Origin: Thuidium tamariscinum
Lineage: Eukaryota; Streptophyta; Bryopsida; Hypnales; Thuidiaceae
Direction: 5' to 3'
Length of the DNA stretch: 64,000 bases
Assembly (NCBI GenBank): GCA_947034885.2
Contig: OX344755.2
Span: forward strand, 64,501-128,500
Shown here: positions 326 to 57,637 of the stretch, one piece after another
How positions within the stretch are numbered: the stretch's first letter is position 1
Layout: every line of letters begins with the position of its first letter
The notes under the pieces: model-generated
What the model was told of the DNA's origin: nothing
The model's input: the letters and a program-made list of their open reading frames with translations, nothing else
Database searches by the model: none
Position numbers and translations under genes: made by a program

Positions 326-365
326 AAAAAGGGTTTGGAAGCCCTGGACGGCCAGTAGCTGGCCA

Positions 366-475
366 CTGCCGGCTGGCTACGAGCCTTATACTGCTGCTGG
401 CTACGAGCCTTATACTGACTGCTGGCTGCGAGCCTTATATTGACTGCTGGCTTAACGAGCCTTGACTGCTGGCTT
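366..475. repeat. Minisatellite of about 26 bp in copy A
   Basis: Four degenerate head-to-tail copies of a unit containing GGCTACGAGCCTTATACTG, with the last copy shortened. The equivalent positions in copies B and C hold GC-rich tandem repeats with quite different monomers. Confidence 0.75.
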
Positions 476-1196: not shown

Positions 1197-1204
1197 CTTT
1201 TATA
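1197..1204 (-). promoter_or_regulatory. Predicted TATA box of repeat copy A
   Basis: The minus strand reads TATAAAAG, a perfect plant TATA consensus, followed by a GC-rich stretch. The matching place in copy B reads CTATTTAAGG and in copy C GTATATAAGGG. Conservation of a TATA-like motif at the same place in three diverged copies supports a real, now probably dead, promoter firing toward lower coordinates. Confidence 0.5.
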
Positions 1205-2258
1205 CATTTCCAAGGCCTCCTCCCCCCTCAAGTTACGAACTAAACTAACTACGAAAAAACCAAGTTAACGAACTAAAAAATCTACCCTACTGCTGTAGCT
1301 ATTCTAACTTTTGGAGAAATGGTCCGATCGCCAAACGGACAGCGCCATTAGCTCCAGAAGACCCAAATTAGTCTGAAAGAACCCCTACCCCTTACTCTCG
1401 GAACCCAAATGCACTCCAAAGCTAACATTCACGAACCGGTAAAAAGGGTGGAAAATCTATCTTTTGGAATTGATTTTTCCCAAAGGTTTTGACTAGCCCG
1501 GGTTGTCGGGAAGGTCCAAGAATGTTGGAAAAGAGTCTAAGTTGACCCGAATCGGACTCCGTATGCTCCCCGTGCGCCGGTCAACTCGCAAGAGTTTTGG
1601 TAAAACCATCAAAACTTGTCTACGCTGCCGGTTCTGGTACTTGTTGATGTCAGAAAGTCTTGAAATTTGGTGGGACGCTTATTTAGGCTAAAACATACTA
1701 TCCTAATTTTTAGTGGGATTTTACCATCACCGTGGAATCTTCTATGAATTTCCAATTGCCGGTAAAAGCGGTTGACTTCCCATGGAGTCATTTCCGTAAT
1801 CCAGGAAATTACGAAACTTTTAGGGGATCTTCTAGGAAGTCCCCCAATGACAAGCGCAAAGTTTTGCTAAAACCCTACACTGCCTAATCAAAGTAGAAAT
1901 TGCAATGTGGCGGAATTAATTCCTCCGGGGATGAATCATTCCCGTACAAGGGAATCTTCGCCGGTTGGCTTCGCCGTGACGCCCGTAGGAGACTGTCGGA
2001 CTCCCATGGTGCTAATGCAATCTCTTGTGAATCGCGTAAAATCATGTCTAATCTCCTGATAAGTTGTAGAAATTGGCTCTAAGGAATCTTTCAAGGTACT
2101 CCAAAATCATTAGACCCAATTCTCCATCATTGGCAGGAATCGCATCAATCCTACTATGAGTACTCTTTTTAGTTGATTTTTAACCATAATTATCCTAAAT
2201 ACGAGCAATAAGCGAAAAAAAGAAAAATCCGAGGCTTGAGTGACAATGACGGGACTCA

Positions 2259-27841: not shown

Positions 27842-28450
27842 TCAAAACGAAGAATAGCTAGAATTGTTGATTACAGCACTCACCTCTGTCTGCATAGCTA
27901 CTATTGCTGAGGAGGTGGCTTCTTCCACCATTGTGGGCTCTGCTGACAGAGGCACACTTTCTTCTTCTACGGTCGGCCTCATTGTCTGCCTCGCTGCTCT
28001 CAATGATGACTGCAATTGTTCTAATTGCCTCTCCATACGCTGTATGGATTCGGTGTCAATCAACTGTGGCACTTCCTCTTCTTCCCCCATTGGGACCTTC
28101 TTCTTCACTGATTTGTCGAAGTCATCGTTGCGCTCCTTTTGAGGGTCCTCTTCGAAAGTAGCATTCTTTTGTGTGGGTGAAGGACATTCCTTTGTTTTCT
28201 TCAGGGACTTCTTTTTTTGGGCCACACCCTTGTAACCTTTTTTCCTCCACATTTCAAAATGCACTTCATCCAGGTCCGGCTCCCTACCCAATTCTTTCTG
28301 TAAGTCTTCACAAATTCTGTCTTCACCTCTTGGACTTGTTCTTCCTTTGTTCACTCGACAAGCATTCGCATACTTCATCCGTTGTGACAACGCCTCTTGA
28401 GAAGGGTCTTGAGGAATTCTATCTAAACGACGCCATACACCTGCGTCCAT

Positions 28451-29160
28451 CAGGGTTGTCTATCCCGACGTGACATGGGCTTTTGCCGTCCGGATGTCAT
28501 GACGCGTCAGTCGTGACGAGTCAGGACGCGTCAGAGGCCGTCCCGAATGCTGACGGCGTCGTCGACGGCCTGGATGAAGTCCGTCGACCGTCGACAAGGC
28601 CGTCCACAATCGACAGGGCCGTCGAGGAGGCCGTCCACGAGGCCGTCCACCGTTAACAAGGCCGTCGAGGAGGTCGTCGACCGTCGACAGGGCTGTCCAG
28701 GAGGCCGTCCACCGTCGACAGGGCTGTCCACGAGGCCGTCGACCGTTAACAGGGCCGTCGAGGAGGCCGTCGACGAGGCCGTCCACCGATTAGGGTTGGC
28801 CGGCTGCAAACTTCAGAGCCTTGTAACTTTTGCAAAAAGTCTTCAAATTGGGCAAATGAGATGTTTTTCGGCATCTACAGTTTCTGTAGATGCCGAAAAA
28901 CATCTCATTTGCCCAATTTGAAAACTTTTTGCAAAAGTTACAAGGCTCTGAAGTTTACAGCCGGCTAGCCCTAATCGGTTCGATTCTATCCTGGACGGTC
29001 CGGTCGACGGTGGACGGCCTCCTCGACGGCCCTGTCGACGATTTTTCATCCTCTGTCGCGGATTCTGTCGTGAATTTCATCCTGACGGACGCTCGGCTCC
29101 CCGTCACGTCAGCGGACGGACATCCTGACGGACGGATGTGACGCGACGGAAGCAACCTTG
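28451..29160. mobile_element. hAT-like MITE 1, 710 bp, 8-bp TSD GCGTCCAT
   Basis: It starts CAGGGTTG and ends CAACCTTG (CAACCCTG in its sisters). It is flanked by a perfect 8-bp direct repeat GCGTCCAT (28443-28450 and 29161-29168). CAGGG-type ends with 8-bp TSDs are the hAT signature. The interior is very GC-rich: a tandem array built on GGCCGTCGAGGAGGCCGTCC (about 28545-28785) and a 93-bp-arm palindrome centred at 28881-28883. Sister copies are at 47438-48230 (same orientation) and 49642-50265 (reverse). The overlapping long ORFs on both strands come from repeats without stop codons and are not genes. Confidence 0.93.
28788..28976. repeat. Central palindrome of hAT-like MITE 1
   Basis: Two 93-bp arms (28788-28880 and 28884-28976) are nearly perfect reverse complements around a 3-base centre (CTACAG TTT CTGTAG). 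Matching palindromes are at 47858-48046 and 49826-50014. The size is suited to hairpin small-RNA processing if transcribed. Confidence 0.9.
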
Positions 29161-38718: not shown

Positions 38719-40190
38719 TCACTTGTGTGTAGGCAGTGGATGGACAAAATATACAAGGGCTAGTACAAGAGCCTGACATAGGGGAAGAGCAATATGTATG
38801 GCGTGAAGAGCATGAAGGCCATCCCTAATATGTCTGGCCCCAGAGAACGGAGGTCGAGGTGGACCAGATGGTTCAAGATGCATTCTTCCACGTAGACATG
38901 ATTCACGATGAAGCAAATGCAGACGACGTTGCCAACAACGCAGTAGAAGATGACGCCGAAGTCCGTCTAGCTGACATGCAACGTCTGATTCAAGAAAGCA
39001 CAAAAGCCATGTACGCTGGATGTAGAGTTAATCGTCTACAAGCCTCCATTGTGCTGATGAATATGGTCAACACATATAGTATTTCATATACTTTCTTGGA
39101 TGAATTACTTCGTTTCCTTGCAGCAGATCTGCTACCTCAATCCAACTGTTTACCTCGTAGCACTTACGAGACGAAGACCATGCTCATGAAGATGGGTCTA
39201 GAGCACCAAAGCATCCACTGCTGCCTAGGTGGCCACATACTATACGAAGGCGAGGAGCATGGCCCTTTGGTTGAGTGTCCTCAATGTGGTTCCCCTAGGT
39301 ATGTGCCTGGGACAAATAACATACTGCAGAAGGTGCTTAGATATTTCCCTATTATTCCACGTCTCCAACGATTGTTCCGTTGCCCGGAGGTGGCAAAACT
39401 CATGAAGTGGCATGCCAATAGCCGTAGCTCTGATGGGAACATGAAGTCCGTGGTTGATAGCCAACAGTGGGCGGCAATACATGAGATCGATGCCACATTC
39501 AAAGACGAAGAGAACAACTTGTACATGGGTCTGGTTGCGGATGGTGTAAATCCGTTTGGAAATCAGAGTACGAGGTATTCCATGTGGCCAGTACTGTTGG
39601 TGACGTACAACATTCCACCTTGGCTTGTATCCAAGAAATTCTTTATAGCCTTGACTCTCTTAATTCCAGGAGAAAAAACTCCTTCTGGTGAGGCATTTGA
39701 TGTGTTCATCACTCCATTGGTGAGAGATCTAAAGAGGCTCTGGCGTGGCATATGGACAATCGATGCATCAATTTAGGGCGGAGGTCGAAATTTCTTGATG
39801 AGGGACATACTCATGTAGACAGTCAACGACTTCACAACATATGGACTCATTTCGGGGCAGCAGTTAAAAGGATATAAAGGATGTCCTCTGTGTGTGACGC
39901 AAACATACGCAATTCATTCTCCCGTGTTGAAGAAAATGCTCTATTTAGGCAACCGCAGGTGGCTTTCACCAGAGCATCGATTCAGGTGAGCGAAAGTTGC
40001 ATTTGATGGCAACCCAGAGTTTCGAGCATCGCCTGAAAGGCCCACAGGGCATGACATTTTATGCATGGGCCAGGAGAGGAAAGCGTTTGTTGCCGAAGGC
40101 GGTCGCAAGAATGTAGACAATGATCCGGTGAAAGAGCATGGACTTAAGCACGTCAGCGTGCTCTACAACCTTCTTTACTGGGCGGTGAGT
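38719..40190 (+). pseudogene. CACTA Tnp2-type transposase, N-terminal and core exon
   Basis: This part carries the core of the plant CACTA transposase (Transposase_21/Tnp2 family), which cuts and joins the element ends. Visible blocks: an acidic leader; a zinc-ligand-like VECPQCGSPRYV; KVLRYFPIIPRLQRLFRCPE; MKWHANSRSSDG; MGLVADGVNPFGNQSTRYSM then WPVLLVTYNIPPWL; and TLLIPGEKTPSGEAFDVFIT. An open frame runs 38859-39776. The next block (GGGRNFLMRDIL, TVNDFTTYGLISGQQLKGYK, GCPLCVTQTYAIHSP, YLGNRRWLSPEHRFR) continues in the same frame, but after a TAG at 39774-39776, a TAG near 39812 and a TGA near 39987. A plausible donor (GGCG|GTGAGT) lies near 40182. The start codon is uncertain, as a TAG near 38826 lies upstream of the 38859 ATG. 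The stops make it non-functional. Confidence 0.85.
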
Positions 40191-40850
40191 TTTACTACAT
40201 CTGAACTCATGTTCCACTGCTCATGTTGGGAGTAAGCTAGTGGAAATAGAAGCATGTAGATTTATGTTTTCATATTGTTTTCCTTGCTAACAATAGTGAC
40301 GATTTCTGCCCACTTTTGCAGTATTGAACACTACGATTAGCAATAAGTATGCCATGTTATTCAATGGAAGTTTATTGTTGCATGTCAATGAACGTAGTCA
40401 TTGTGCTGGAAGAGTAGTTTAGAAAGTGAACCAGCATGACAGTCCACAGAATTCAAAGAGAATTTCAGGGAGAGTTAAGTTTTTGCACTGGGAAGTGCTC
40501 TAAATCGCATGCTAAGAAAATGTCAGGTCTCATGGATCATGTGGGAAGGAATTCCGAGAAGATAACACTCAATATTACCTTATGTTTAATAGAGACAGTC
40601 TATTTCACGTATAGAGCATGCATGAAAAAATACATGAAGCCCTACAGCAGTCCATGCGCATTTGGAGCATGAAAGTAGGATTCACTTCATTCATGTCACT
40701 GACGTCATTAGTATGTTTGTTCCCGTAAATGTTAAACTTGGAGTTCGTAAAGCTTAGTGTCTAGTGCTCATTGGAAAGGTAGTGCATGTTGCCCCTCTGG
40801 GAATTACGAATTCATGACTCTGAACATGCGTTTGTGATTTAGGATCTTTC
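40191..40850 (+). other. Probable intron of the CACTA transposase
   Basis: AT-rich and without homology-supporting codons. It sits between GGCG|GTGAGT near 40182 and a TTTCTGTGCAG|AATTTGC acceptor near 40857, after which the transposase frame resumes. Confidence 0.5.
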
Positions 40851-40851
40851 T

Positions 40852-41860
40852 GTGCAGAATTTGCTGGACGTGATGCATTGTGAGAAAAATGTTTGTGAAA
40901 ACATTTTGAAGACTCTACTAGGGGAGAAGGATAGTCCCGCCGTTCGATTGGACATGCAGCGGATGGGGATACGCCCTCAACTGTGGTTGCAACCCAGGGG
41001 TGGTACTGGTGACCGTCTATGGTTACCAAATGCGCCCTACATCCTCTCTTTAGCGGATAGAAGGGAGTTCATGGAGACTTTGAGGTCCATAAAAACTCCT
41101 TCAAGGTATGTATCCACGCTGAATTCCAAAATTGTAGATGGAAAGTTACGTGGTTTAAAGTCTCATGACTACTATGTTCTCCTTCAACAAATTATACTAA
41201 TGTGCTTAAGAAACATCGGTAATAGAGAAGTTGTTGCTGCAATTATGAAAATGAGTAGGTTATTTCAACGTTTATGCGCAAAGGTCGTCAACCCTGGACG
41301 ACAACAGCAACTACTGGAGGATGCGGCAGAGACACTCTCAGCAATGGAGAAGACATTCCCGCCTTCCTTTTTTGATAGTATGGTACACTTTACTGTGCAC
41401 CTTGTTGAAGAATTGTTTATCTGTGGTCCTGTACACACAAGGTGGATGTATCCCTTTGAGCGTTATTTTAAAGGACTAAAAGGTTTTGTTCGAAATTTGG
41501 CAAAGCCGGAGGGAAGTATAGCTCAGGGCTATCAGGTGGAAGAAGCGTTGGGATTTGTGACCGATTATAGCCCCACCAGTAGGCGAGTCTAGGATAGTAA
41601 GGAAGATCCTTCCATGACCGATGAGATTGTGGAAGGTAAAGGCCGACCATGTAAGCTTTCAGAGTAGCTCAGGAGGTGGCTCCACAACTTTGTCTTGGAC
41701 AACTCCGCACAGTTGGAGCCATACCGGATCTAAGACTCTTTTGCACCAATTAGTACATTAACTCGTAGAAATGTTGGTGACAAAAACGAGAATGAGTTTT
41801 GTGTACCTCGTCCTGAATGGGAAGTCCTGAAAAACTTGATCTTCAAAATATACAAGTGAA
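40852..41860 (+). pseudogene. CACTA transposase, DUF4218-like exon
   Basis: An open frame from 40852 to 41592 reads NLLDVMHCEKNVCENILKTL, then LDMQRMGIRPQLW, GLKSHDYYVLLQQIILM, FPPSFFDSMVHFTVHLVEEL, GPVHTRWMYPFERYFKGLKG and FVRNLAKPEGSIAQGYQVEE. These are the hallmark blocks of the Tnp2/DUF4218 part of plant CACTA transposases. In the same frame after a TAG at 41590 come RPCKLSE, stop, LRRWLHNFVLDNSAQLEPYR, stop, and FCVPRPEWEVLKNLIFKIYK, which match the normal continuation. At least three stops are present. Confidence 0.88.
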
Positions 41861-42685
41861 GAGCTTCATGAATTTCAAGTTGTGTGTTAATTAAATGTAC
41901 CTAAATCGTAGAAGTACTTGTATAATTATTTGCTTAGCCAAAATCTGAAAACTTTGGAAGCTGTAGTTTATTTGATTTAAACCCTTTACAAAAAAATAAG
42001 TGATTGCATGTATTGTCGCTGAGAAGCATAATCATTTGCAAAAGGGTCTAAAGTTCTCGAATTTCTTGGAACCCGAAAGTAATTGAAGAAGTTATAGTAC
42101 ATCGCTTTAAACTTTAAAATATAGAAGATAATGCAAAATAGTATTTCAGTGCATTTGGATGCACTGAAATATCAAATCGTCCGATGTACACAGGAAAACT
42201 GCAAAGTTTGTTAGAGACGGGAAGGATTTGCCTGGTAATTGATTTCGTGGAAACTGGTGAGTCCAATTAGTAATGCAAAAGCAATCATGACAGAGACTCA
42301 TGTTTTGGTGTGGACAAAAATTTCAACGTAGTATGCTGCTACCATGAGGTGAATGTGCTCACTTATTGGTCAAAAAGTCTCACATTGTAGAAAGCACGAA
42401 TTTGGATGAACAATATGACAAATGCTCAAAGTGCTAGGCGCAGACATTTGAAATCTTCGGTCTGTCCTGAGTGCTGTGTTGTCTGTGTTAAGAAAAGTGA
42501 TGCTGTGTAGTGGCAGAAGAAGTTACAAATCGTACAGTGAGACTAGTAGGAACTAGGAAGGCAAGAACTCCAAGAAGGGAGGTAGCATAATTTAGATTTC
42601 CTTAAAATCTCGAATGCAGTATCAAGTATTGGAGAGGTTGTTTAGGCGTTTGGTGACCCTAATGTTCACATTATTCTGTGTTTAC
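41861..42685 (+). other. Probable intron of the CACTA transposase
   Basis: No transposase blocks are visible. It includes a local inverted repeat of the type GCATTTGGATGCACTGAAATA near 42150. The frame resumes after GTGTTTACAG near 42687. Confidence 0.4.
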
Positions 42686-43071
42686 AGGCTCTATGAGGAC
42701 TACCACTTGACCTGTACAACGGAACGAAGTAATTTCAGGAGGAGGAATCCAAATAGACGAGGCCGTAGACTTGTACCGTATCCTCAGGACCTTCCTGAGC
42801 CACAACCATTCTCTGATTGGTTAGAAGAGCACATCTCCTCAGAGCTTGCTACTAATGCGGATGCTATTGAAGCAGATGTGTTGGCTTTGTCAAAGCTACC
42901 ATCAGAATTGGCCACCAAATACCGCAGCATGTGGGCGTTTGGGAACCATTTACATGTAGCTAGTGCAAAGGTGCATTTGAAGACCTTTCACTCAGCGGTG
43001 GCTGCGGTTTTTACCTGCCCTTGTAGGTCTAGGTGTCGTAGCACAGGAAAGCACAATTCCTTCTCTAAGGC
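42686..43071 (+). pseudogene. CACTA transposase, exon broken by the foldback
   Basis: The frame reads LYEDYHLTCTTERSNFRRRN, PYPQDLPEPQPFSDWLEEHI, then ELATKYRSMWAFGNHLHVAS, ending TGKHNSFSKA at the foldback border. The last part corresponds to the segment just before the DUF4216 region of Tnp2-type proteins. The remainder continues beyond the foldback at 52284. The 43072-43084 codons that close the open frame already belong to the foldback. Confidence 0.75.
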
Positions 43072-43384
43072 TGTGGCAACCTAGAATTCCCCTAAGCAGG
43101 TTCTTACGCAAAATACGGGAAGAGGGATCTATTCAATCCCCATTTTTTTTGTTGTTTTCTTAGTTTTTACGCACAATTAGGACCAAGACCGGAAACCGGA
43201 AAACCCCAAACCGTAAACCAGAAACTACGTTAAGGGACAGCGTAAGAAAATCCGGATTCCGTCCACCTAGCGACCGAGACCGGATAGGCAATGAGTGGCT
43301 ACCGAGTCTAGAGATCGTCGGGAACTCTCCCACGTGACCAGATTGGTTTAAACCTAACGGTCAGTAATTAATGCCGGGGGAAAA

Positions 43385-43392
43385 GTATAAGA
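43385..43392 (+). promoter_or_regulatory. TATA-like motif of foldback arm
   Basis: GTATAAGA lies about 235 bp upstream of the arm's ATG. Element E has a clear TATA box (CTATATAAGG, 54177-54186) at a comparable place before its related ORF. Confidence 0.35.
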
Positions 43393-43621
43393 CCAGGGAA
43401 GCAGGGCTAGGTCCTGCCACTTTCTTGCACACAATTCGAGAAAGGGTTTCCGGCCAGAGATAGAGTATTCGGTCTACAGACAGAGAGAAGGGATAGATAA
43501 TCTGTCAATCCGGTCTGGTACATAGTTGAGCAATTAGCACTACGCTAGCTGACAGGTTCTTGAGCGCGGGAGGTTCAGTCAAGTTGGACCGCGCCTAGAT
43601 AGTGTAGGCGTCAAGTGAGCA

Positions 43622-45718
43622 ATGGCAGAAGGGGTGCAGGAAGAACTAATTCTAGCCTTCCGAAATGTGAATCCGGTCGTGCCGACTGACGCACAAGAGA
43701 AGCGGGAGCTGGAGGAAGACCTCAGGCAGATGGGCTGCGAGGGGTTCATGGCTCACCTCTGGAACTTGAAGGATGAGGCGATGGTGGAGGAGTTGCTGAC
43801 CGGCCAGACCAACGAGTGGAAGGGGACGGTCCGGGTGCTGCCAAAGGAGTGGAGCGCGGCTATGTGGCGCAAGGTGTACGCCTTCGAGCAAGGCGGAGAT
43901 GCGACGGGCACCCGGACGGACAAATTCCACCAGGGGAAGTTCCGCAGGCCCACCAACCCGAAGGACGGCTTTACGGTAGCCGAGTGTGTGTCTGCTAGAC
44001 ACAAGAGGCTATTGCGGTTCATGATGGCGATCTTGAACCCGGATAGGCTTAGCAGGATTACGGTCACCGTAGCCAACACAGTCTTTGGTGCGCTATCGGG
44101 GGACCGGAGAATAGATTGGGGGTTAGTCAGGAGAGACCGGATGGGCAGAATGGTGAAAGGGATTGGGAAGTCTAAATCCTCTCCCATTTCACCATTCCTG
44201 TTTCATTTATACCAGTCGTTAGACCTCTTGAGAGAGAAGGAGAGGGAAGCTTACGAGGTAGGGGCTGCAATGATAGAATATGAGATTGCCGACCCGGAAG
44301 CTGAGAATGACCAAGATGAGGGTGACTCCGAGGATGAGAGTCAAGAAGGGCAGTAAGGAGGCACGCAGGAGGAAGACGAAGTTCCAGAGGTAGGAGGGGA
44401 GAATCCACCTCTAGAAACCCCTGTAGTAGCCGGGGAAGCCCAGAGGTTAGATCCAGTCTAGGAACAGGATCCATTGCTAAGGATCCTGCGAGACCTGGAT
44501 GACTTTAGAAAACACCATTTGGAGGAGAGAGGGTTGTTGCGAGGCATAAGCCAAGCCCTAGGCTCTATTCCGCCCACCAAGATCATGGAGGTGTTGGGGG
44601 AATTGATTCAGGAGGCACATGATAGCCAGGATAGAGAAGAGGTACTTCGGTTGACGAACCAAGTCTCAGCCCTAAAGAGGGAGCTCCATCACACTCAGGA
44701 GGAGTTGGATGAAGAGAGACGCCTCACCACGCAGGCCCGGAACACACTCGGAGAGATCCGAGAGTTCATTACGCATTTGGGCGAGGTCGTCAACAAAGCC
44801 ATGCTTTTCGACAGGAAGGTGTTGGAAGTAGGCAAGATGGTGGATCCCCAGATGCTTACAACTCTGGTGGCCTACAACAAGAAGATGGAGGCAGCGTTGG
44901 AGAAGTGGCGGTCAGTAGTCACAAAAGTCCAAGCTAGTTCTGCTCCGGTCTCAGGACCGGAAGAGCCAAAGATGGAGGAGGAGCAGTCGAAGGATCAGCC
45001 ACCACCAATAGCTGTCGAGGTAGAAGCTGGCACATCCGAACCGGCGAAGGAAGAGGAGATCAGGTCTGAAGCCGTGGCGGAGGAACCTGTCCCACCGACC
45101 CGGATTGAAGAGCCCAGGGTTTCTCAACCCGAGAAGACCAAGGAGCCGGAACCCGAGCCGATTGTGTTGAGGGAGATAATCCGGGGAACAATACCACCAC
45201 GGGAGAAGACCAAGTTCATCACCTTGTTGGATGATTCTCCAAGCAAGTCATCACCCACGGTCGTCACACAACCGAAGACCGGAGGAGAGACAAAGGCAAC
45301 GGTGCAGGTCCGCTCCATACTGAAGACCGGATCTGGATCCGGGTCACCAAGCAAGTGACCAGCCCGGACTGCCGAGAAAGTGGGAGACCAGACCCCACAA
45401 AGCAAGATAGTGCACCACCCGCCCATCACCGGATTCAAGAAGAAGACCGCGGAGACATCCAAGGTGAAGCGGAAGGCCCGGGATGAAGAGGAAGAGGAGT
45501 CAGACGAGGAAGATGAGGACTCGAAGGAAGAGACCGACTCCGGTGATGAGTCGGAACAGTACTCAGATGCAGACCAGGCACTGGCAGAGACCAAATAGAC
45601 TAGGGCCAAGGCGCGGGGTAAGACCAAACCGAAACCTAAGCCCATCAGGATGTATCGGTCTCCGAAGAAGCAGCCATCCCGTAAGGGTGCATCGCCTGTC
45701 AAGAGGGCGAGGAAGTAG
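43622..45718 (+). pseudogene. Foldback-arm ORF (about 700 codons), unknown family, left copy
   Basis: One frame runs from ATG 43622 to TAG 45716-45718, broken by stops at 44354 (TAA), 44459 (TAG), 45356 (TGA) and 45596 (TAG). The N-terminal 200 residues form a globular domain shared with the right-arm copy and with element E: QMGCEGFMAHLWNLKDE, AMWRKVYAFEQGG, NPKDGFTVAECVSARHKRLL, RFMMAILNPD, ITVTVANTVFGAL, SPISPFLFHLYQSLDLL. An acidic stretch follows, then a long coiled-coil-like region (residues about 285-440), a Pro/Glu-rich part and a basic tail (KPKPKPIRMYRSPKKQP). No zinc knuckle, protease or polymerase motif is visible. A structural gag-like role is possible but unproven. Confidence 0.55.
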
Positions 45719-46953
45719 GGGAGCATTAACATCAGGTAGATAGGAAGGCGGCTAAATCAGGATATATTTAGAATAGGTAGTTTTGAATCTAGACCGGATC
45801 CAGATTAATAGGATCTGAGATCCTATTTTGTTGGTATTTTTGGAGTTTTGTGGAAGTCAACCCGCCCAAGTTGTAGAGGAATGTTACGTGGCATTCTTGG
45901 CGGCTGATGTTGATTCCATTTGCACTTTTAGGTTTTCTGGTAGTTTAGTATTTAAACCCGGTTCGTAATGGAATCCGGGCGTGCATTATGTTATCTTACT
46001 TTCACAAGTTTTTGTGTTGCAAATACAAGTCAGAACCTTTCTGATTCACTCTGGAGTGGGCTGTGTGCATGGGACCTTGTCAAAGTCTTATGGTGATGGT
46101 TAGGATTGCAGCCTTGTGTGGATAAGTGTGTGCCCGGATGTTCAGTTTATCCGGTCTCTAGACTTAAAGTGAATTCGGTTTTGATAGGGAATTTGTGCAG
46201 GATCTCACAGTGTTTTTTGGAACAGGTCTAGGGAGTATTCAATAGGGATAGACACTTGTAGAGTCTGGATTTGAGATCGGGAGCGTCCGGCCAAATGCCA
46301 ACTGAATGGTGATCCGGTCTCTGTAGAAGAAAGAAGGACTAAGTGAGGAAATTCAGCTCTCTTGCATAAGCTACCGCCCTTATTCTACCAGGACTTAGAC
46401 TAACTGGGTAATCTGTCGTTGTAGTCTTTGTTAGGATCAGGCAGGAGTACTTGCGTGACTTGTTGGGTCGGATTAGTCCCGGTCCAGTTGTGAGGTATTC
46501 TGGTCTGGTTGTAGTAGTAGTTTCTTTTTACTTACAAGTGGAACTTCTGACACTTTAAAACTTGAAGGGTAGGAGTAAGCTTCCTTCCTAAACGCCCAAA
46601 CAAGCAGATCCCTCTTGTTAGCGAGGTAAAACTTATATTTGGTTACTAAATCTAGGGATTGGACCAACTCTTAGTATCCGATCTTTAGCCCATATCTAGT
46701 AAAGATAAGTATAAAGGTGAATGAAACATACTGGTATAATATCTATTTAAGATTGGAAAGATAAAGGATTGATCTGGTAATCAGGTCTAAGGACGTCTTA
46801 GGAACCTTTGAGACCAGGACCGGATTAGTCTTTTGCTTGGGTTTTGTTGTGGTAACCACTAACGTATTCCGGTCTTTCGTCAACTTTCGACCAAATCCTT
46901 TGGGAACAATACACGAGTCACTTTAAGGCTAATTTAGTACATTCTAACGCCTT
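45719..46953 (+). other. Non-coding inner part of foldback left arm
   Basis: No coding capacity. A TATA-like TATTTAAA at 45949-45956 follows the ORF, a second potential promoter in the same direction. The matching spot in element E is GATTATTTAAGTC near 56383. The remainder is rich in CCGGTC/GACCGG words and ends at the palindrome centre. Confidence 0.45.
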
Positions 46954-46986
46954 AGAGAAGGAATTGTGCTTTCCTGTGCTACGACA
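46949..46986. repeat. 38-bp inverted copy of host DNA at foldback centre
   Basis: The 38 bases are the exact reverse complement of 43034-43071, the CACTA transposase sequence immediately outside the foldback's left end (key words TGTCGTAGCACAGG and CTTCTCTAAGGC). The last five bases of the flank (AAGGC) also appear at 46987-46991, where the right arm begins. Confidence 0.95.
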
Positions 46987-47437
46987 AAGGCGTTAGAATG
47001 TACTAAATTAGCCTTAAAGTGACTCGTGTATCGTTCCCAAAGGATTTGGTCGAAAGTTGACGAAAGACCGGAATACGTTAGTAGTTACCACAACAAAACC
47101 CAAGCAAAAGACCGATCCGGTCCGGGTCTCAAAGGTTCCTAAGATTTTCTTAGACCCGATTACCAGATCAATCCTTTATCTTTCAAGACTTGTATATCTA
47201 TTTATACCAGTATATTTACCACCTTTATACTTACCTTTGCTAGATATGGGGCTAAAGACCGGATACTAGTAGTTGGTCCAATCCCTAGATTAGTAACCAA
47301 ATGTAAGTTTTATCTCGATAACAAGAGGGATCTGCTTGTTTGGGCGTTTAGAAAGGAAGCTTACTCCTACCCTTCAAGTTTTAGAGTGTCAGAAGTTCCA
47401 CTTGCAAGGAAAAAGAAATTACTACTACAACTAGACC

Positions 47438-48230
47438 CAGGGTTGTCTATCCCGACGTGACGTGGGCTTTTCCCGTCCGGATGTCATGACGCGTCAGTCG
47501 TGACGAGTCAGGACGCGTCAGAGGCCGTCCCGAATGCTGACGGCGTCGTCGACGGCTTGGATGAAGTCCGTCGACCGTCGACAAGGCCATCCACAATCGA
47601 CAGGGCCGTCGAGGAGGCCATCCACGAGGTCGTCCACTGTTAACAGGGCCATCGAGGAGGCCGTCGACCGTCGACAGGGCCGTCGAGGAGGCCGTCCACC
47701 GTCGACAGGGCTGTCCACGAGGCCGTCGATCGTTAACAGGGCCGTCGAGGAGGTCGTCGAGGAGGTCGACCGTTAACAGGGCCGTCGAGGAGGCCGTCGA
47801 GGAGGTCGTCGACCATCGACAGGGCTGTCGACAGGGCCGTCGAGGAGGCCGTCCACCGATTAGGGCTGGCCGGCTACAAACTTCAGAGCCTTGTAACTTT
47901 TGCAAAAAGTCTTCAAATTGGGCAAATGAGATGTTTTTCAGCATCTACAGAAACTGTAGATGCCGAAAAACATCTCATTTGCCCAATTTGAAAACTTTTT
48001 GCAAAATTTACAAGGCTCTGAAGTTTACAGCCGGCTAGCCCTAATCGGTTTGATTCTATCCTGGACGGTCCGATCGATGGTGGACGGCCTCCTCGACGGC
48101 CCTGTCGACGATTTTTCATCCTCTGTCGCGGATTCTGTCGTGAATTTCATCCTGACGGACGCTCGGCTCCCCGTCACGTCAACAGACGGACATCCTGACG
48201 GACAGACGTGACGCGACGGAAGCAACCCTG
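47438..48230. mobile_element. hAT-like MITE 2, 793 bp, in foldback right arm
   Basis: It starts CAGGGTTG and ends CAACCCTG. The flanks are ACTAGACC (47430-47437) and ACCAGACC (48231-48238), an 8-bp TSD with one change. The left arm of the foldback preserves the empty site (on the minus strand: CTACAACCAGACCAGAATAC), which confirms both borders. The interior is a GTCGAC-rich tandem array (about 47530-47850) plus the 189-bp palindrome at 47858-48046. The long ORFs here are stop-free repeats, not genes. Confidence 0.95.
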
Positions 48231-48984
48231 ACCAGACCGGAATACCTCACAACTGGACCGGGACTAATCCGGCCCAACAAGTCACGCAAGCACTCCTACC
48301 TGATCCTAACAAAGATTACAACGACAGATTACCCAGTTAGTCTAAGTCCTGGTAGAATAAGGGCGGTAGCTTATGCAAGAGAGCTGAATTTCCTCACTAG
48401 TCCTTCTTTCTTCTATAGAGACCGGATCACCATTCAGTTGGCATTTGGCCGGGTACTTCCCGATCTCAAACCCAGACTCTACGAGTGTCTATCCTTATCG
48501 AATACTCCCTAGACCTGTTCCAAAAAACACTGTGAGATCCTACACAAATTCCCTATCAAAACCGAATTCACTTTAAGTCCAGAGACCGGATAAACTGAAC
48601 ATCCGGGCACACACATATCCACACAAGGCTGCAATCCTAACCATCACCATAAGACTTTGACAAGGTCCCATGCACACAGTCCACTCCAGAGTGAATCAAA
48701 AAGGTTCTAACTTGTATTTGCAACACAAAAACTTGCGAAAGTAAGATAACATAATGCGCGCCCGGATTCCATTACGAACCAGGTTTAAATACTAAACTAC
48801 CAAAAAACCTAAAAGTGCAAATGGAATCAACATCAGCCGCCAAGAATGCCACGTAACATTCCTCTACAACTTGGGCGGGTTGACTTCCACAAAACTACAA
48901 AAATACCAACAAAATAGGATCCCAGATTCTACATATCTGGATCCGGTCTAAGTTCGAAAATTCCTAACCTAAATATATCATGCC

Positions 48985-51757
48985 TTAGCCGCCTTTCTGT
49001 CTACCTAACATTAATGCTCCCCTATTTTCTTGCTCGCTTGACAGGCCATGCACCCTTCCGGGTTGGTTGTTTCTTCGAGGACCGGTACATCTTGACGGGT
49101 CTGGGTTTCGGCTTGGTCTTACCCCGCGCCTTGGCCCTGGTCTTCGTGGTCTCCGCCAGTGCTTGGTCTGCATCTGAGTACTAGTCCGACTCATCACCGG
49201 AGTCGGTCTCCCCCTCCGAGTCCTCATCTTCCTCTTCTGACTCCTCTTCTTCTTCATCCCGGGCCTTCCGCTTCACCTTGGGTGTCTCCGTGGTCCTCTT
49301 TTTGAATCCGGTGATGGGCGGATGGTGCACTGTCTTGCTCTGTGGGGTCTGCTCTCCCACTTTCTCGACAATCCGGGCTGGTCACTTGCTTGGTGACTTG
49401 GATCCAGATCCGGTCTTCAATATGGAGCGGACCTGCACCGTTGCCTTTGCTTCCCCTCCGGTCTTCGGTTGTGTGACGACCGTGGGTGATGACTTGCTTG
49501 GAGAATCGTCCAGCAAGTTGATGAACTTGGTCTTCTCCCTTAGCGGTGTCGTTCCCCGGATGATCTCCCGCAACACAATCGGCTCGGGTTCCGGCTCCTT
49601 GGTCTTCTCGAGTTGAGAAACCCTGGGCTCTTCAATCCGGACAGGGTTGCTTCCGTCGCGTCACGTCCGTCCGTCAAGATGTCCGTCTGCTGACGTGACG
49701 GGGAGCCGAGCGTCCGTTAAGATGAAATTCACGACAGAATCCGCGACAGAGGATGAAAAATCGTTGACAGGGCCGTCGAGGAGGCCGTCCACCGTCGACC
49801 GGACCGTCCAGGATAGAATCGAACCGATTAGGGCTAGCCGGCTGTAAACTTCAGAGCCTTGTAACTTTTGCAAAAAGTTTTCAAATTGGGCAAATGAGAT
49901 GTTTTTCGGCATCTACAGTTTCTGTAGATGCCGAAAAACATCTCATTTGCCCAATTTGAAGACTTTTTGCAAAAGTTACAAGGCTCTGAAGTTTGCAGCC
50001 GGCCAGCCCTAATCAGTGGACGGCCTCGTGGACAGCCCTGTCGACGGTGGACGGCCTCCTCGACGGCCCTGTCGACGGTCGACGACCTCCTCGACGGCCC
50101 TGTTGATTGTGGACGGCCTTGTCGACGGTCGACGGACTTCATCCAGGCCGTCGACGATGCCGTCAGCATTCGGGACGGCCTTTGACGCGTCTTGACTCGT
50201 CACGACTGACGCGTCATGACATCCGGACGGGAAAAGCCCACGTCACGTCGGGATAGACAACCCTGAATCCGGGTCTGTGGGATAGGTTCCTCCGCCACGG
50301 CTTCAGACCTGGTCTCCTCTTCCTTTGCCGGTTCGGATGTGCCGGCCTCTACCTCGACTGCTGCTGGTGGTGGCTGCTCCCTCGGCTGCTTCTCCTCCAT
50401 CTTTTGCTCTTCCGGTCTTGAGACCGGAGCAGAGCTAGCTTGGACCTCCGTGACCACTGATTGCCACTTCTCCAACGCTGCCTCCATCTTCTTGTTGTAG
50501 GCCACCAGAGCTATCAGCTATGAGCATCTGGGGACCCACCATTTTGCCTACTTCCAACACCTTCCTGTCGAACAACATGGCCTTGTTGACGACCTCGCCC
50601 GGATGTGTGATGAACTCCCGAATTTCTCCGAGAGTGTTCCTGGCCTACGTGGTGAGGCGTTTCTCTTCGTCCAACTCCTCCTGGGCGTGATGGAGATCCC
50701 TCCTCAGGGCTGAGACCTGGTTTGTTAGCCGGAGTACTTCCTCTCTGTCCCAACTCTCATGTGCCTCCTGAATCAATTCTCCCAACACCTCTATGATCTT
50801 GGAGGGTGGGATGGAGCCTAGGGCTCGGCTTATGCCCTGCAACAACCCCCTCTCTTCCAGGTGGTGTCTTCTAAAGTCATCCAGGTCTCGCAGGATCCTT
50901 AGCAAGGGGTCCTGTTCCCAGACCGGATCTAACCTCTGAGCTTCTCTCACTACCACGGGAGTTTCTAGAGGCGGATTCTCTCCTCCTACCTCTGGGTCTT
51001 CCTTTCCCTCCTGTGCACCCTCTTGCTGCTCCTCTTTACTCTCCTCCTCGGAGTCCTCCTCATCTTGGTCGTCCTCAGCTTCCGGGTTCGCAATCTCGTA
51101 TTCTATCATCGCTGCCCCTACCTTGTAATTTTCCCTCTCCTTCTCTCTCAAGAGGTCTAATGAATGATATAAATGAAACAGGAATGGTGAAATGGGAGAG
51201 GGTTTAGATTTCCCAATTCCTTTCACCATTTGGTCCATCCGGTCCCTCATAACTAACCCCCAATCTATCTTCCTGTCTCTCGACAACGCACCAAAAATGG
51301 TGTTGGCTACGGTGACCATAATTCTACTAGGTCTATCCGGGTTCAAGATCGCCATCATGAACCGCAACAGCCTCTTGTATCTAGCAGACACACACTCGGC
51401 TACCGTGAAGCCATCCTTCGGGTTGGTGGGCCTGCGGAACTTACCCTAATGAAACTTGTCTGTCCGGGTGCCCGTCGCATCTCCGCCTTGCTCGAAGGCG
51501 TACACCTTGCGCCACATAGCCGCACTCCACTCCCTTGGCAGCGCCCGGACCGTCCCCTTCCACTCGTTGGTCTGGCTGGCCAGCAGCTCCTCCACCATCA
51601 CCTCATCCTTCAGGTTCCAAGGATGAGCCATAAATCCCTCGCAGCCCATCTGCCTGAGGTCTTCCTTCAGCTCCCGCTTGTCTTGTGCGTCAGTTGGCAC
51701 GACCGGATTCACATTCCGCAAGGCTAGAATCATTCCTTCCTGCACTTCCCTTGCCAT
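48985..51757 (-). pseudogene. Foldback-arm ORF, right copy, split by MITE 3
   Basis: The same ORF as at 43622, read on the minus strand from ATG 51757. It is broken at different places: a stop at 51443-51445 after ...TRTDKFH, another at about 50643 after ...DEEKRLTT, and MITE 3 inside the Pro/Glu-rich region. It reads through the two stops that break the left copy near 44354 and 44459, so each copy retains parts lost in the other and the ancestor was a single long protein. The C-terminal part (49616-48985) is again acidic then basic. By eye about 85-90% of residues match the left copy. Confidence 0.55.
49642..50265. mobile_element. hAT-like MITE 3, 624 bp, reverse orientation
   Basis: The ends are CAGGGTTG and CAACCCTG. 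The flanks are AATCCGGA (49634-49641) and AATCCGGG (50266-50273). The left foldback arm has the empty site near 45105. Relative to MITEs 1 and 2 the body is inverted and the tandem array is shorter. The palindrome lies at 49826-50014. Confidence 0.94.
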
Positions 51758-52283
51758 CTCTCACTTGACGCCTACACAATCTAGGCGCAGTCCAACTTAA
51801 CTGAACCTCCCGCGCTCAAGAACCTCTCAACTAGCTTAGTGCTAATCGCTCAACTATACGCCGGACCGGATTGACAGATTATCTATCCCTTCTCTCTGTT
51901 TGTAGACCGAATACTCTCTCTTTGGCCGGAAGACCCTTTCTCGAATTGCGTGCAAGAAAGTGGCAGGACCTAGCCCTACTCTCCTGGTCTTATACTTTTC
52001 CCCCGGCATTAATTACTGACCGTTAGGTTTAAACTAGTCTGGTCACGTGGGAGAGTTCCCGACGATCTCTAGGCTCGGTAGCCACTCATTGCCTATCCGG
52101 TCTCGGTCGCTAGGCAAGCTGAATCCGAGTTTCTTACACTGTTCCTTAGCGTAGTTTTCAACTTCCGGTCTTGGTCTTAATTGTGCTTCAAACTAAAGAA
52201 ACAAAAAAAAATGGGGATTGAATAGATCCCTTTTTCCCGTATTTTGCTAAAGAAACAACTTAGGTGAATTCTAGGTTGCCACA

Positions 52284-52828
52284 CTAGGTTGAAGGATCGG
52301 AACCCTGTTGTGGCAGATGTCGAATATGTTGGTCACGTGCAGGAAATTCTGGAACTGAACTATAGGGGGCTGTGTGTAATAGTCTTGTTATGCAGTTGGA
52401 TCAAGGCCAACTACAGGGGAAATACGGCTACAATTAAGAAAGACAGATGGGGTTTTTCACTTGTCAATTTCACACAACCAGAGCCTTTTGGTCCAGAATC
52501 ATTTGCATTTTCATTGCATGTCGAACAAGTTTTCTTTGCAGATGCAAAAGAAGACCCAAGATGGAAAGTTTTACTACAAAAGGAAATAAGGAATCGTCGC
52601 GTTCATGGAGACATTAGTGTTGCTGCAAATATTAGAATGTTTAGTATGGGTGAAGATAGAGAGCACGAAGGACTACGTGCCCCTAAGGTTATTGTGGAAG
52701 AAAACCCAAGTCAATTACCTACAGGGAGGACTGTGAGACAGGAGGAAGCATTTGCAGACCGGGTCAAAGTTCCTTTACCGCACCCAAACCTTGGAGACTC
52801 CGGCGAATCTTCTGAGGATGAGGAATGA
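52284..52828 (+). pseudogene. CACTA transposase C-terminus (DUF4216-like)
   Basis: The frame resumes immediately after the foldback: DRNPVVADVEYVGHVQEILE, LNYRGLCVIVLLCSWIKANY, TIKKDRWGFSLVNF, SFAFSLHVEQVFFADAKEDP and RWKVLLQKEIRNRRV, ending in an acidic tail (GESSEDEE) and TGA. This is the DUF4216-type module that closes plant Tnp2 transposases. The open frame has no ATG of its own at its start; it is the 3' piece of the gene at 38719-43071. A diverged relative is at 7480-8140. Confidence 0.85.
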
Positions 52829-53855
52829 ATTCAGCATAGAAAGTGGACACTATTCCTCTGTTTGGTAATTACAAGTCAAGAAGTAGGGGACGGTCCACAT
52901 GGAAGATGGAGGTTCACTTTGGTACGTGGTTATTTTCAGAAGAAGTCAAGTTTCAATACGTTGATGCAATAATAGTGCTTACAGTATTTATCGTCAGTTG
53001 CCACGTTTTACATGTGCTTGTAGTGTGCAACAATTTTCTTACAAATTTCAGGAATATATTAGTGGAGCAGAAGTTCGGACGCCAACATTAGGTGTTGTGG
53101 TAGTTTTTCAGTGAAATTGACGCCTTCTTAGTACATGCCATCAGAGGGCTAACTTCTGTACTATCCTTGGAAGCAGGAATCTTGGACCTTTTCTTCCTAA
53201 TTGAGGCATTGCCTTTGGCATTATTGCATTACATGTCAGTGCAGAACTTGCTTAGTGGTACTCTTTAAGCATGCCAGTTTCAATTTCTAAGTAGGTGTTC
53301 ATAGCGGTCTTTTGTTGTGCTGTTTCTGCTTTGTACATGTGTTACCGACTGAACTGAAGGTGTTTATCAAACCAGAGAATCTTGGAATTAAACCAGGTAG
53401 GAAATTCACTTGTATATGAAGATGTATTTCATATCACTAGGTCATGGCTTTTGTAAGTGATCACTAGGAAAAGAAGGACAATTTCTTGAGAATATTTTGT
53501 AAATGGATCCAACTCTGACTTTCTTTTGGATGTATTCCGTGGAGAACACCTTTAACCGAGAGCACTTGGTTCTCAATTTTCTGAGGAGTATGCATGTCTA
53601 TCATGCCTACTGAATCCTGCTGTATGTGCCTCCATCATTAATTGCACTGTCCAACGCTATTCTCCATTCCTTTTTTTAATCACAAATTAAACAGAATTTC
53701 ATTTATTCTCCATTCTTCAGAAGATAGTGTATGTACAGTAAAAGAAGCTCTGAACAAAAGAGGCATCACTGACAGAATCATAAATTATAACATCATAATT
53801 TCCTGCGTACCTGCCAATTAGGTAATCTTAAATCCTCCATCTTGCCAAGTCAGCA
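52829..53855. other. CACTA interior 3' of the transposase
   Basis: Probable 3' untranslated and non-coding sequence. The 82-codon open frame at 52843 has no recognisable motif. Confidence 0.35.
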
Positions 53856-54176
53856 TGTGGCAAGGCATATTTTTGATTTTTTCCTTTAAGCATGATTTGG
53901 GAACGGAAGTCAGGAACTTAGCAACCGGAATTTCTCATGGAACGGGTAAAATCCTGCAATAGTACCGGATAATTTTGTAGTGACCGGTCACGGAATAAAT
54001 CCGGTCTATGATAACAGAAGTCCGGATCGGAAAGGATTCCGGACCCTTTCAGGGGAGGAACAGATTCTATCCGGATTCAGTTCTTGATCCGGACCGAGCC
54101 TTTTCCGGACTTGGACCGATCGGATATGAATGGGAACGGATGATCAGGACCGGAAGACCGGATCCATTTCGAGAAA

Positions 54177-54186
54177 CTATATAAGG
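54177..54186 (+). promoter_or_regulatory. TATA box of element E
   Basis: CTATATAAGG, a strong plant TATA consensus, about 345 bp upstream of the element's ATG. A second TATA-like motif (ATTATTTAAG near 56383) lies after the ORF. Confidence 0.55.
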
Positions 54187-54528
54187 CCTGACATTTTCAG
54201 TTGGCCCATTTGCTCTCAGGCGCCTCGTTGTGTGTTTTTTAACCCTCAGCGTTTTTCGCCTTTTCTGTGAGTTTGTCTTTTTGCGCGTGTTTGGTGGCAC
54301 GACTTTCTGTGGCGCGGCTGTCAGTGTTTGCGGCTGGTGTTAGTCAGAGCGGGCAGTTGTCAGCGGCGCGGGTTTCAGACTGTGCGCTGAGACGCTGGTG
54401 TGCGCGGGAGGACTGTGTGTGTTCTGTGCAGGTGGTTATTACGGGCGGATTGTGTTTGTGTTGTGAGTGTGTGAGGAACGGGACGTGCGGCTAGGAGAGA
54501 AGTGAGGTAGTGTTTCCGGATAGTTGCC

Positions 54529-56208
54529 ATGCCGCAGCTACGTCGGAAGAGGAACGAGTCCACCACACCCCCGCCCCCAGGGATACGATTGAAGAAAGTA
54601 GTTCCGCTCATCCCTTCTACAGAGCCGGAGAGAGGTAATCTGATGGCCGACCTAACCACCATGGGTTGCCTAGGGTTAGCAGAGATACCCTGGGGGTTCA
54701 AGGAGGAGAAAATGGTGAAGGAACTGATGGGGAAGGTGTCGAATCAATTCGACAACACGGAGCGGGGAGTAGCGCACAAATGGACGGAAGAGCACTGGAG
54801 GACCGTGTACGGATTCAAGCACCAGGGGCACGGACCGGCCGGGAAGAAGGTAGACTTCCTCCAAAACAAGTTTAGTGGCACCCTTCACCCGAAGGACGGA
54901 TACCGGATCATGGACTGCAACGAAGACAGGCATAGACGCCTGTTGAAGTTTCTGCTTCCGATCCTTCATCCGGAGAAACCAACCCGGATCACGATCGGCC
55001 TGGCCAACACCATTTTCAGTGCTCTGATCGGAGACCGGAAAGTAGACTAGGGCCGGATCATCCATGAGCTGGTCGGCCGGTTACTGAGAAACCTTACAGG
55101 GAACAAGGCGACCCCGATCTCTCCCTACCTCTTCCACCTCTATCACAGCTTACAGCTCCTCACGGATACGGAGGAAAAGACTTGGCGCGCTCAGGAGATA
55201 GTCCTGAAGTACGGAGAGTCGGAGACGGATGACGAGGAGATCCCCTCCGATTTCGACATGGAAGAGGAGGACAAGGATGAGGACCCGGAAGCTCCTCCCT
55301 TGAAGCGGCATAAATCAATACCGCCGAACACGAGAGGATCACCTTCGGTCTGACGAAATCCGGCCACGGAGGACAGACCGGGACCGTCAGAACCGGGGCC
55401 ATCCAAACCGGCACCGAAGGGGAAGGGTCCCAAGGATCCGTTCGACAAGTTGACGGAGATCCTGTGTAACATCCGGGCGGATTGGGAGATCAAACGGATT
55501 ACCCTAGAATCTATCGCGGCTATGGTTAACAGCCAACCGGATAGAGATCTTCCGGGTGTAGTGGGGAATTGCATCGCCTCCCCCATGGATCTCGCCAAGT
55601 TGGAGGCGGAAAACCGGAAACTTCAGGATGAAGTTGACGGTTTGAAGGCGGAACTCCTTGTCCTCAGGGACAACGAGGCCGCTACCAAGGAAATGGCGGC
55701 TGAGACCGTCAAATTGGTCGGGCAAGTGAAGGCGATATTCGGGGAACCCGGATCGGCAGCCATCCGGGCTCGGCTGTTTGACGAGGAGGTCCACAAGGAG
55801 AAGAAACTATCCGGAAGTCGGATAGCCCGGATCCTTACCGACTTCTCCGACCGAATAGAGACAACTCTGGTGCAAGTCCGAGAGGCGGCCGATCGGATGG
55901 AAGACTGCAGCCGTAGACTGACGGAAATCCCGATCAGACTCTCCGATCTATCTCTTCCGGATATTTCCGAAGGGTTGCCCCAGAGGCCAGGGAAGGACAG
56001 GACGCCGCAATCCAAGAAGTCGGGGCGAGCGTCAACGGATAACCGGGAGGCGGCAATTCAGTTGTCAGAGTCTCCTGCGAGTCCTGATATTGGAGCTCCG
56101 GTTGCAATAGACGGGGAACGGAATCGGAACCTCACCGAGGTCTTCGAGCAAATCAGCAGGGCGGAAAGCCCGACTATAGGATCTAGGGTAGCAGGGCTGG
56201 ATACGTAG
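54529..56208 (+). pseudogene. Element E ORF (560 codons), same unknown family
   Basis: One frame from ATG 54529 to TAG at 56206-56208 has internal stops at 55048-55050 (TAG) and near 55351 (TGA). The N-terminal domain matches the foldback ORF block for block: TMGCLGLAEIPWGFKEEKMV, KWTEEHWRTVYGFKHQG, HPKDGYRIMDCNEDRHRRLL, KFLLPILHPE, ITIGLANTIFSALIGDRKVD and ISPYLFHLYHSLQLL. It is followed by an acidic stretch, a coiled-coil-like region (LEAENRKLQDEVDGLKAELL) and a Ser/Pro/Arg-rich tail. Protein similarity is clear while the DNA is strongly diverged, so the family is old and its N-terminal domain was kept by selection. Confidence 0.6.
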
Positions 56209-57479
56209 GTGTTAGATTTTCCTGTTTTTGTAGTTTTTAACTTAGGAAACGGATTAGGAGGAAATCCGGTCCAGTTTAGGAACTTAGAGCGGGTTGGAAT
56301 CCGTTCCGGTTCAGAAGTAGGTAGGAACGGATCCGTCGAGCGTTAATCGCGGCGGACTTGTATGGCACTTTTTGCTTTTTGCTGATTATTTAAGTCAGTT
56401 CCCTCGCGGTGGACTGGGAGTCTTTTCCTTTGCATTATCTTTGTGTATTTTATTCTCTCTTGCTTTGCACGTGTATCTCCCGAGTTTGGCAGGGCGGCGT
56501 GACGCGGAGTTAGGGAGGCGCAAGTGGTTTTGCAGGCGACATTCTCCCTTTGGTGTTTATTTTCCGTGTCTGAGTATATGAGAACGGGTAGAGAAGAGTT
56601 GGGAGTGTAATTCTAGTGCCTCAACGCTTCTAGGACTTAAGATTCCGGGTGAGAAAGCCGTTGTTAGGCTAGACGAGAGGGAGGGATTCCTTAATCGTGC
56701 TAGAGCTCCTGGGTGGGAAACCCAGTTGAGTGTCCGATCTCCTGTGAGGTCTCACCGTCTTTGTGGCAAACGGAAGAGTTCTGGTTGACGTTGGAACGGA
56801 CGGATACACTTGTAGCCACTTGGCTCCCCAGGAACGGAAAGTAGTGTCAAAGTCGTTGTAGTATGAGAAGATCGTACGGGGGATCTCTGTGTGACCTACA
56901 GTCCGGATCTTTGTCTGGACTATTGTGAGGGATCAAACCGGATCTGAAGTAATTTTAGAATTAACGGGTAGAAAGTGGGTCTTCAGCCACTATAAGTCAC
57001 GGAAGGAGCGGTGGGCCTACCGCTCACAAAATCAAGCGGCGACCCCTCTGATGGTAAAACAGAGGCAAAGCTAAACCGGATTGAGGAACGGGTGTGGACG
57101 GATCATCCGGAACGGATTGGTTCAGAGAGGAAACCAAGAGCGGAACCCGTTAGGGAGCGGATCCGTTGCAGTCTGACGGAACGGATAAAATCCGGGAAAC
57201 CGGAAAAGTGAGGGAACGGATCCGTTCCGGACCAGAGTGCTAGAATATCAGTTTTTGAACGGGATAACGGGTTGTTGTCTCGGGTTGTTTGTGTGTTTCC
57301 GGTTCTAGATCTAGAACCGGATTATAGAGTTTTGGGAGCTGTCCTATCTTAATCGCTCAACTAAGCCCGATACTTCACAGAATCTCATGGGTTCGATCTT
57401 TAGAGTCACTTAGTTATACTCTACAGTGATTTTTGTGAGTATAATGGGGAATTTACTTACCCTGTGTTGCGACACAGCA

Positions 57480-57637
57480 CCCTCATGTACCACTGAAAGA
57501 CAGAACAACAGACTTTATCAATCTCTGTTGATTTTATGAAAATCTTTGAAGAGACTGCCATTTTAATTACTAAGGCAGTTGGTATCAACAGAGATCAACT
57601 GAAAATGTGTTGATTCGGGCCCCTTTTTCTAGTAGTG
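57480..57637. mobile_element. Possible remnant of a CACTA-type MITE
   Basis: It ends TTTCTAGTAGTG (57626-57637), the reverse complement of CACTACTAGAAA. An inverted repeat (TCAATCTCTGTTGAT near 57519 and ATCAACAGAGATCAA near 57584) lies within. No matching left terminus was found next to element E. Confidence 0.35.

Follow-up and report, generated by a model that had tools for sequence, protein, structure and literature searches.

A long inverted repeat at positions 43072..52283 of a 64,000-nucleotide stretch of DNA from Thuidium tamariscinum (contig OX344755.2; the whole stretch is referred to below as the window) raises the question of whether a single giant transposon with long inverted arms is found here, as was claimed in a preliminary description, and what the open reading frame (ORF) carried by both arms might be. 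The inverted repeat itself is plainly present, as the self-comparison suggested in that description gives an inverted diagonal that pairs 43072-45106 with 52283-50266 at 87.4% identity and 45100-46509 with 49640-48231 at 92.6% identity, inner inverted blocks running on to a centre near 46970, and since the BLAST E-values of the two main blocks are 0, chance is ruled out. The outer ends are TGTGGCAACCTAGAATTC, as had been described, and the excess length of the right arm over the left, 1.4 kb, is due solely to two nested insertions at 47438-48230 and 49642-50265. The key to the structure is the identity between the central loop, 46949-46986, and the left flank, 43034-43071, of which the loop is the exact reverse complement at 38 of 38 positions. 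The left unit occupies 43072..46986 on the forward strand (3915 bp, TGTGGCAACC...GTGCTACGACA), starts with TG and ends with CA, has both of its ends recurring in 17 of 20 copies fetched from the genome, and is enclosed by a perfect 5-bp target site duplication (TSD), AAGGC, at 43067..43071 and 46987..46991. The right unit lies on the reverse strand and reads from 52283 to 46992, the two insertions falling within this remainder (46992..52283), before it resumes from 43071 to 43034 with the terminal 38 bp (43034..43071) that the left unit has severed from it, and it is likewise bounded by a perfect 5-bp TSD, CTAGG, at 43029..43033 and 52284..52288. In other words, the left unit interrupts the right one 38 bp short of its end, in the opposite orientation. 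We hold it to be practically certain that the 9.2-kb structure consists of two solo long terminal repeats (LTRs) from a single Ty3/gypsy family, one nested in the other and inverted relative to it, and it is this inversion together with the homology of the two units that gives the pair the look of a foldback. Models in which the loop is a copy of the target flank, made by repair or template switching, were dropped, since the loop proved to be the 3' end of the left unit itself, followed by the TSD.

The window units are solo LTRs because the same unit recurs as the paired LTRs of longer elements in the 363-Mb, 19-contig assembly in which all genome searches were made. The argument draws on a third, divergent solo LTR in the window (53856..57474, forward strand, 3619 bp), which begins 1.6 kb downstream of the inverted structure and has the TSD CAGCA at 53851-53855 and 57475-57479. 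A search with a piece of the ORF of this third unit as protein query gave 1,380 candidates, 150 of which were scored. Among these 150 matches, 18 same-strand pairs lie less than 30 kb apart, nine of them spaced by 9,522-9,524 bp, as opposed to none of the six opposite-strand pairs. These nine pairs constitute a sister subfamily that shares 90-91% identity with the third unit over this piece of the ORF. The LTR-paired elements are about 13-14 kb long and have a primer site and a purine tract. The element on C5, which was read in pieces, has the TSD GTAAT on both sides and a first LTR that ends TTGCGACA and is followed by the putative primer site TGGCAAAAATCTGGCGCCGCTGCCGGGGAT, presumably of the tRNA-Asp type. 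Its internal frame of 466 codons is open through the whole piece read and matches RVT_1 (PF00078, E 2.7e-21) and RNase H (PF17917 and PF17919, E 6.6e-36), the end of its internal region resembles an integrase C-terminus by eye, and the purine tract AGATGAGGAAGGGGTAA precedes the second LTR. The left family is likewise represented by an LTR-paired copy on C1, with LTR 3' ends at 47806178 and 47796179. It is flanked on either side by the TSD AAAAG, and its second LTR is preceded by a purine tract. Here the first LTR is followed by CGAGAAAG and the same primer-site core as in the C5 element and then by a frame that is open for all 500 codons read and matches Retrotrans_gag (PF03732, E 5.6e-11). 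The same sequence is thus known as paired LTRs both for the left family and for the sister subfamily of the third unit. Furthermore, three copies of the LTR gene are found at 9,522-bp spacing at C2:8440768-8460330 (G000, 8.44-8.46 Mb), and judging from this spacing they probably form a tandem LTR-retrotransposon array with an inner LTR in common, of the kind described in PMC11899658; this array lies outside the structure in the window.

The ORF is an extra gene on the sense strand, wholly inside the LTR and separate from gag and reverse transcriptase (RT), and it is therefore retained by solo LTRs. It spans 43622..45718 on the forward strand of the left unit (about 698 codons) and 49022..51757 on the reverse strand in the right unit (coordinates from the arm alignment), where it is split by the insertion 49642-50265, and both copies have premature stops. 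The preliminary description held that the arms carry the same ORF of about 700 codons broken at different points, and whereas the ORF is indeed common to both, one of the four internal stops that each copy shows in the aligned frame has the same position in the two arms. The codons after this stop still give a ratio of nonsynonymous to synonymous divergence (dN/dS) of 0.21, and no conclusion is drawn from the common stop because both arm copies are broken elsewhere. The intact form that had been postulated does exist, since the gene is uninterrupted at 698 codons in 3 of 18 left-family units (17 fetched copies and the left unit of the window), and many of the 150 scored matches to the ORF piece of the third unit lie in open frames of 565-571 codons. 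In the third unit of the window the gene is found at 54529..56205 on the forward strand in three open pieces (54529-55047, 55051-55350 and 55354-56205), and its ORF is 38% identical to that of the left unit over 155 residues (E 2e-40). Between the arms the gene has a dS of 0.35, a dN of 0.064 and a dN/dS of 0.18 (573 codons), the corresponding ratios in the two other frames being 0.99 and 1.26. Within the left family the median dN/dS is 0.17 (range 0.13-0.39, from the 146 of 153 pairs among the 18 units that had enough changes), and within the third family it is 0.21 (range 0.16-0.46, 39 of 45 pairs). The LTR gene is thus under purifying selection, with dN/dS of 0.17-0.21, in subfamilies that have only about 38% residue identity in its first part. 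A further divergent subfamily of the gene, 41% identical to L022, is seen at L060:3535-4095, where a left-family solo LTR lies about 3.4 kb upstream.

In agreement with the preliminary description the ORF falls outside named families, as neither Pfam, NCBIfam nor the PDB gave a significant match (best sub-threshold E 0.008 in Pfam/NCBIfam). A sequence search of the PDB with the left ORF piece found no match, and a six-row profile found only SPC24 at a non-significant E of 0.11; structure prediction from four pieces in the window gave a mean pLDDT of 40.9 and was unusable, and no relatives were found among viral contigs. No transposase or integrase model was matched, nor any gag domain in Pfam, a gag match being what the preliminary description had named as speaking against it, and the element has its gag elsewhere, downstream of the LTR, so that the ORF is neither a transposase nor a gag. 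The Pfam models named in the part of PMC6317226 consulted (plant mobile domain, Transposase_28 and Athila ORF-1) were likewise not matched by the LTR ORF. Transposase_32 (PF20167) was considered by eye and rejected, its sole genome match (C1:40851528) scoring 29 bits against a cut-off of 45 and lying away from the listed LTR ORFs. By eye, an acidic stretch and a basic C-terminus can be made out in the 698-codon product, and from its composition one may guess at a coiled coil in its middle.

The remainder of the LTR contains candidate promoters and a 3' noncoding part. A TATAAG at 43386..43391 on the forward strand (offset 315 in the left unit) is a candidate promoter of the LTR gene by motif match, as is a TATATAA at offset 323 of the third unit, before the ORF. 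A TATTTAA at 45949..45955 on the forward strand, about 1.04 kb from the LTR end, is by the same token a candidate promoter of the genomic RNA, with a TATTTAA about 1.09 kb from the LTR 3' end in the third unit, and other TATA-like matches are found further down from 45949..45955. The 3' noncoding part (45831..46948, forward strand) is only 4-6% diverged between the arms as compared with the dS of 0.35 in the gene, and this suggests constraint or recombination. It can be aligned end to end between the third and the left unit with a score of 164 (100 shuffles: mean 71, sd 11.5, maximum 106), and the 5' noncoding parts of these two units show no significant alignment (score 54, shuffle maximum 61).

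Single units were surveyed with the first 1,429 bases of the left unit as query, giving 41 match rows (40 scored of 462 candidates), one of which is the window, and 20 of the others were fetched. In 17 of these the left unit is matched from base 1 to 3915, and a perfect 5-bp TSD is found directly around 10 of the 17 complete copies. Single units have an imperfect 8-bp terminal inverted repeat and no direct repeats inside. The 17-mer at the 3' end of the left family has 342 exact copies in the genome and its reversed control none, a number that counts ends, solo status having been checked in samples only. Among 30 such loci that were read, taken as the first in coordinate order and not at random, four belong to a more divergent subfamily, and the downstream sequences are dissimilar from the first base, bar one pair resembling a tandem duplicate. 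For the third unit, 39 of the 40 matches listed (40 scored of 444 candidates) span 1-3619, and the TSD is perfect at 9 of 10 loci read, these ten including the window unit and three with duplicated flanks and amounting to about 7 independent sites. On C6 (24.98-25.61 Mb) four left-family LTRs spaced by about 200 kb (L015, L018, L024 and L025) have identical 25-bp flanks and an upstream purine tract nearly the same as that before the 3' LTR of the C1 element, and because both flanks are common and the tract is upstream, they are probably the 3' LTRs of longer, duplicated elements. Further opposite-oriented neighbours of the same families are seen at L011 (C3:41.86 Mb), L014 (C3:42.91 Mb) and C6:19.89 Mb, and as L014 likewise sits inside another copy, with a TSD, false foldbacks recur in the genome.

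Several observations weigh against the assignment of the units to a Ty3/gypsy retrotransposon with a gene in its LTR. The perfect TSD is missing in 7 of the 17 complete left-family copies, one of which matches at 4 of 5 positions while two show none and four are the C6 copies with common flanks. The primer-site core follows the 3' end in only 1 of the 30 left-family loci, and the fraction of single units is very high. The gag and the RT-RNase H come from two different elements, on C1 and C5, respectively, and a PF00665 integrase was found in neither of them among the 150 listed matches of 736 candidates. The promoters are motif matches only. In addition, 3' ends spaced by about 22 kb at first seemed to mark full-length elements and turned out to be paired by coincidence; in the C1 pair each unit has a TSD of its own, and of the C2 pairs one joins a unit with a TSD to a unit matching at 4 of 5 positions and the other has no LTR start at the expected places.

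Three other explanations have to be considered. The inverted arms, alike over 3.9 kb, are what would be expected of a foldback (long terminal inverted repeat) DNA transposon of 9.2 kb moving as one unit, but a single TSD enclosing both arms is not found; instead each arm is a separate insertion with TG..CA ends and its own perfect TSD, the loop is the end of the left unit and the left flank that of the right unit, and the ten complete copies with perfect TSDs elsewhere in the genome are single units. Furthermore, a dS of 0.35 combined with a dN/dS of 0.18 suggests that the arms diverged as separate functional lineages before they met, and one giant long-armed element, as originally proposed, must be regarded as next to impossible. 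The structure fits neither MULE nor hAT elements, since these generate TSDs of 9 and 8 bp, respectively, whereas those around all three window units (AAGGC, CTAGG and CAGCA) are perfect duplications of 5 bp, each unit having TG..CA ends. Such ends and TSDs, the imperfect 8-bp terminal inverted repeat, the many single copies and the lack of direct repeats within the unit would also suit a complete transposon of 3.6-3.9 kb mobilised by an integrase of retroviral type (Ginger-like), with the ORF as its transposase, and the failure of the 22-kb pairs had for a time favoured this explanation. It was however overturned by the 9,522-bp pairs and the 10-kb pair on C1, in which two copies of the unit, facing the same way, enclose gag or RT-RNase H together with the primer site and the purine tract, the whole lying within a single TSD, and with an ORF that matches no transposase or integrase model it appears very improbable.

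The anatomy may on the other hand be that of a retrotransposon whose LTR ORF is a mere passenger, a captured gene fragment useless to the element. The ORF has no recognised domain, 15 of the 18 left-family units lack an uninterrupted frame, and according to PMC6317226 the additional ORFs found in LTR retrotransposons of plants often differ among themselves and have no clear function. A passenger is nonetheless unlikely in view of the dN/dS of 0.17-0.21 in two subfamilies, the homologue, 38% identical, that the third unit carries and the further divergent homologue in L060.

With the nested solo LTRs preferred, the history of the locus may be outlined. A first element integrated in reverse into a CACTA transposon, giving the TSD CTAGG, and was then reduced to a solo LTR; a second element, facing the opposite way, entered that LTR 38 bp from its end, giving the TSD AAGGC, and was reduced to a solo LTR as well, and two hAT-like elements inserted into the right LTR later. 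The reduction would be due to recombination of an element's two LTRs with each other, which is an established way in which solo LTRs form. From the TATA-like sites, the LTR gene may be driven by a separate promoter close to the start of the LTR and the genomic RNA may start further downstream in the LTR, in which case the gene would belong to U3 and the genomic RNA would carry it at its 3' end. Its protein is probably an accessory factor that acts in trans during the life cycle of the element. We tentatively suggest, as a possibility that falls somewhat short of probable, that a lineage of plant Ty3/gypsy elements has shifted an accessory gene entirely into its LTR under a promoter of its own, so that solo LTRs are expressible cassettes serving the family in trans. 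If so, every integration would deliver two gene copies, and a solo LTR would be a self-contained cassette that could for example counter silencing or aid packaging after gag-pol has been lost. Since the LTR gene survives solo-LTR formation, its copies can in any case outlive the retrotransposon that spread them, and annotation pipelines may label such ORFs as host genes or unknown repeats.

The surrounding sequence is a CACTA transposon, as the frames upstream of the nested LTRs match tnp2 (PF02992, E 1.2e-35) and DUF4218 (E 6.6e-32). Its coding frame, 42596..52825 on the forward strand, is split by the nested LTRs, and removing both of these and one CTAGG fuses the flanking frames into a single open frame, the part to the right matching DUF4216 (E 3.5e-5, 24.7 bits) below the Pfam cut-off of 30.6. 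That 43034-43071 can itself be read as in-frame CACTA coding sequence is a coincidence. The transposon, 38829-57637, apparently contains all three solo LTRs and its 3' terminus at 57637 ends CTAGTAGTG; its 5' end was sought by terminus patterns and not found. The two hAT-like insertions in the right unit, at 47438..48230 and 49642..50265, have CAGGGTTG-type ends and 8-bp TSDs matching at 7 of 8 positions, and a third copy at 28451-29160 has one right-end mismatch and an exact 8-bp duplication, GCGTCCAT. All three are GC-rich and nonautonomous with ends of this type and a GTCGAC-type minisatellite, and at least both right-arm copies contain a near-perfect internal palindrome. By the type of their ends and TSDs they look hAT-like. 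A weak match to Transposase_24 (27845-28459, reverse strand, E 8.9e-4, below cut-off) adjoins the hAT-like element.

What appeared to be a new class of transposon is thus reduced to two solo LTRs, one nested in the other. Both solo LTRs and nested LTR retrotransposons are familiar in plants, and the locus agrees with these in having single LTRs with TSDs and an LTR inside an LTR, only the near-terminal and inverted position that mimics a foldback being unusual. The nested layout is accordingly ordinary, and the interesting part is that a conserved gene of about 560-700 codons lies entirely within an LTR, itself unusually long at 3.6-3.9 kb. Retroviruses are known to have genes in U3, namely sag of mouse mammary tumour virus and parts of nef and bel. 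Compared with these, the present gene is similar in being located in the LTR and, putatively, at the 3' end of the genomic RNA, but host and element are unrelated and the promoter proposed here for the gene is a candidate one. In the literature searched, consisting of titles and the openings of abstracts with few subscription journals covered, nothing turned up on a gene carried within the LTR of a plant element, the viral titles being a review of mouse mammary tumour virus and papers on foamy viruses, and the part of PMC7466625, on the transposable elements of mosses, that was consulted does not mention 'ORF'. Extra ORFs and LTRs of up to about 5 kb are known from plant Ty3/gypsy elements, and the definition in PMC6317226, as given in the part consulted, leaves room for an ORF inside the LTR. 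The OTA superclade (Athila, Tat/Ogre/Retand) is similar to the family described here in having TG..CA LTR ends, a 5-bp TSD, a primer site, gag, RT-RNase H and a purine tract, as well as LTRs of several kb and an extra ORF beside the polyprotein (PMC6317226), but in the present family the extra gene lies wholly within the LTR and is hence found in both LTRs and in solo LTRs.

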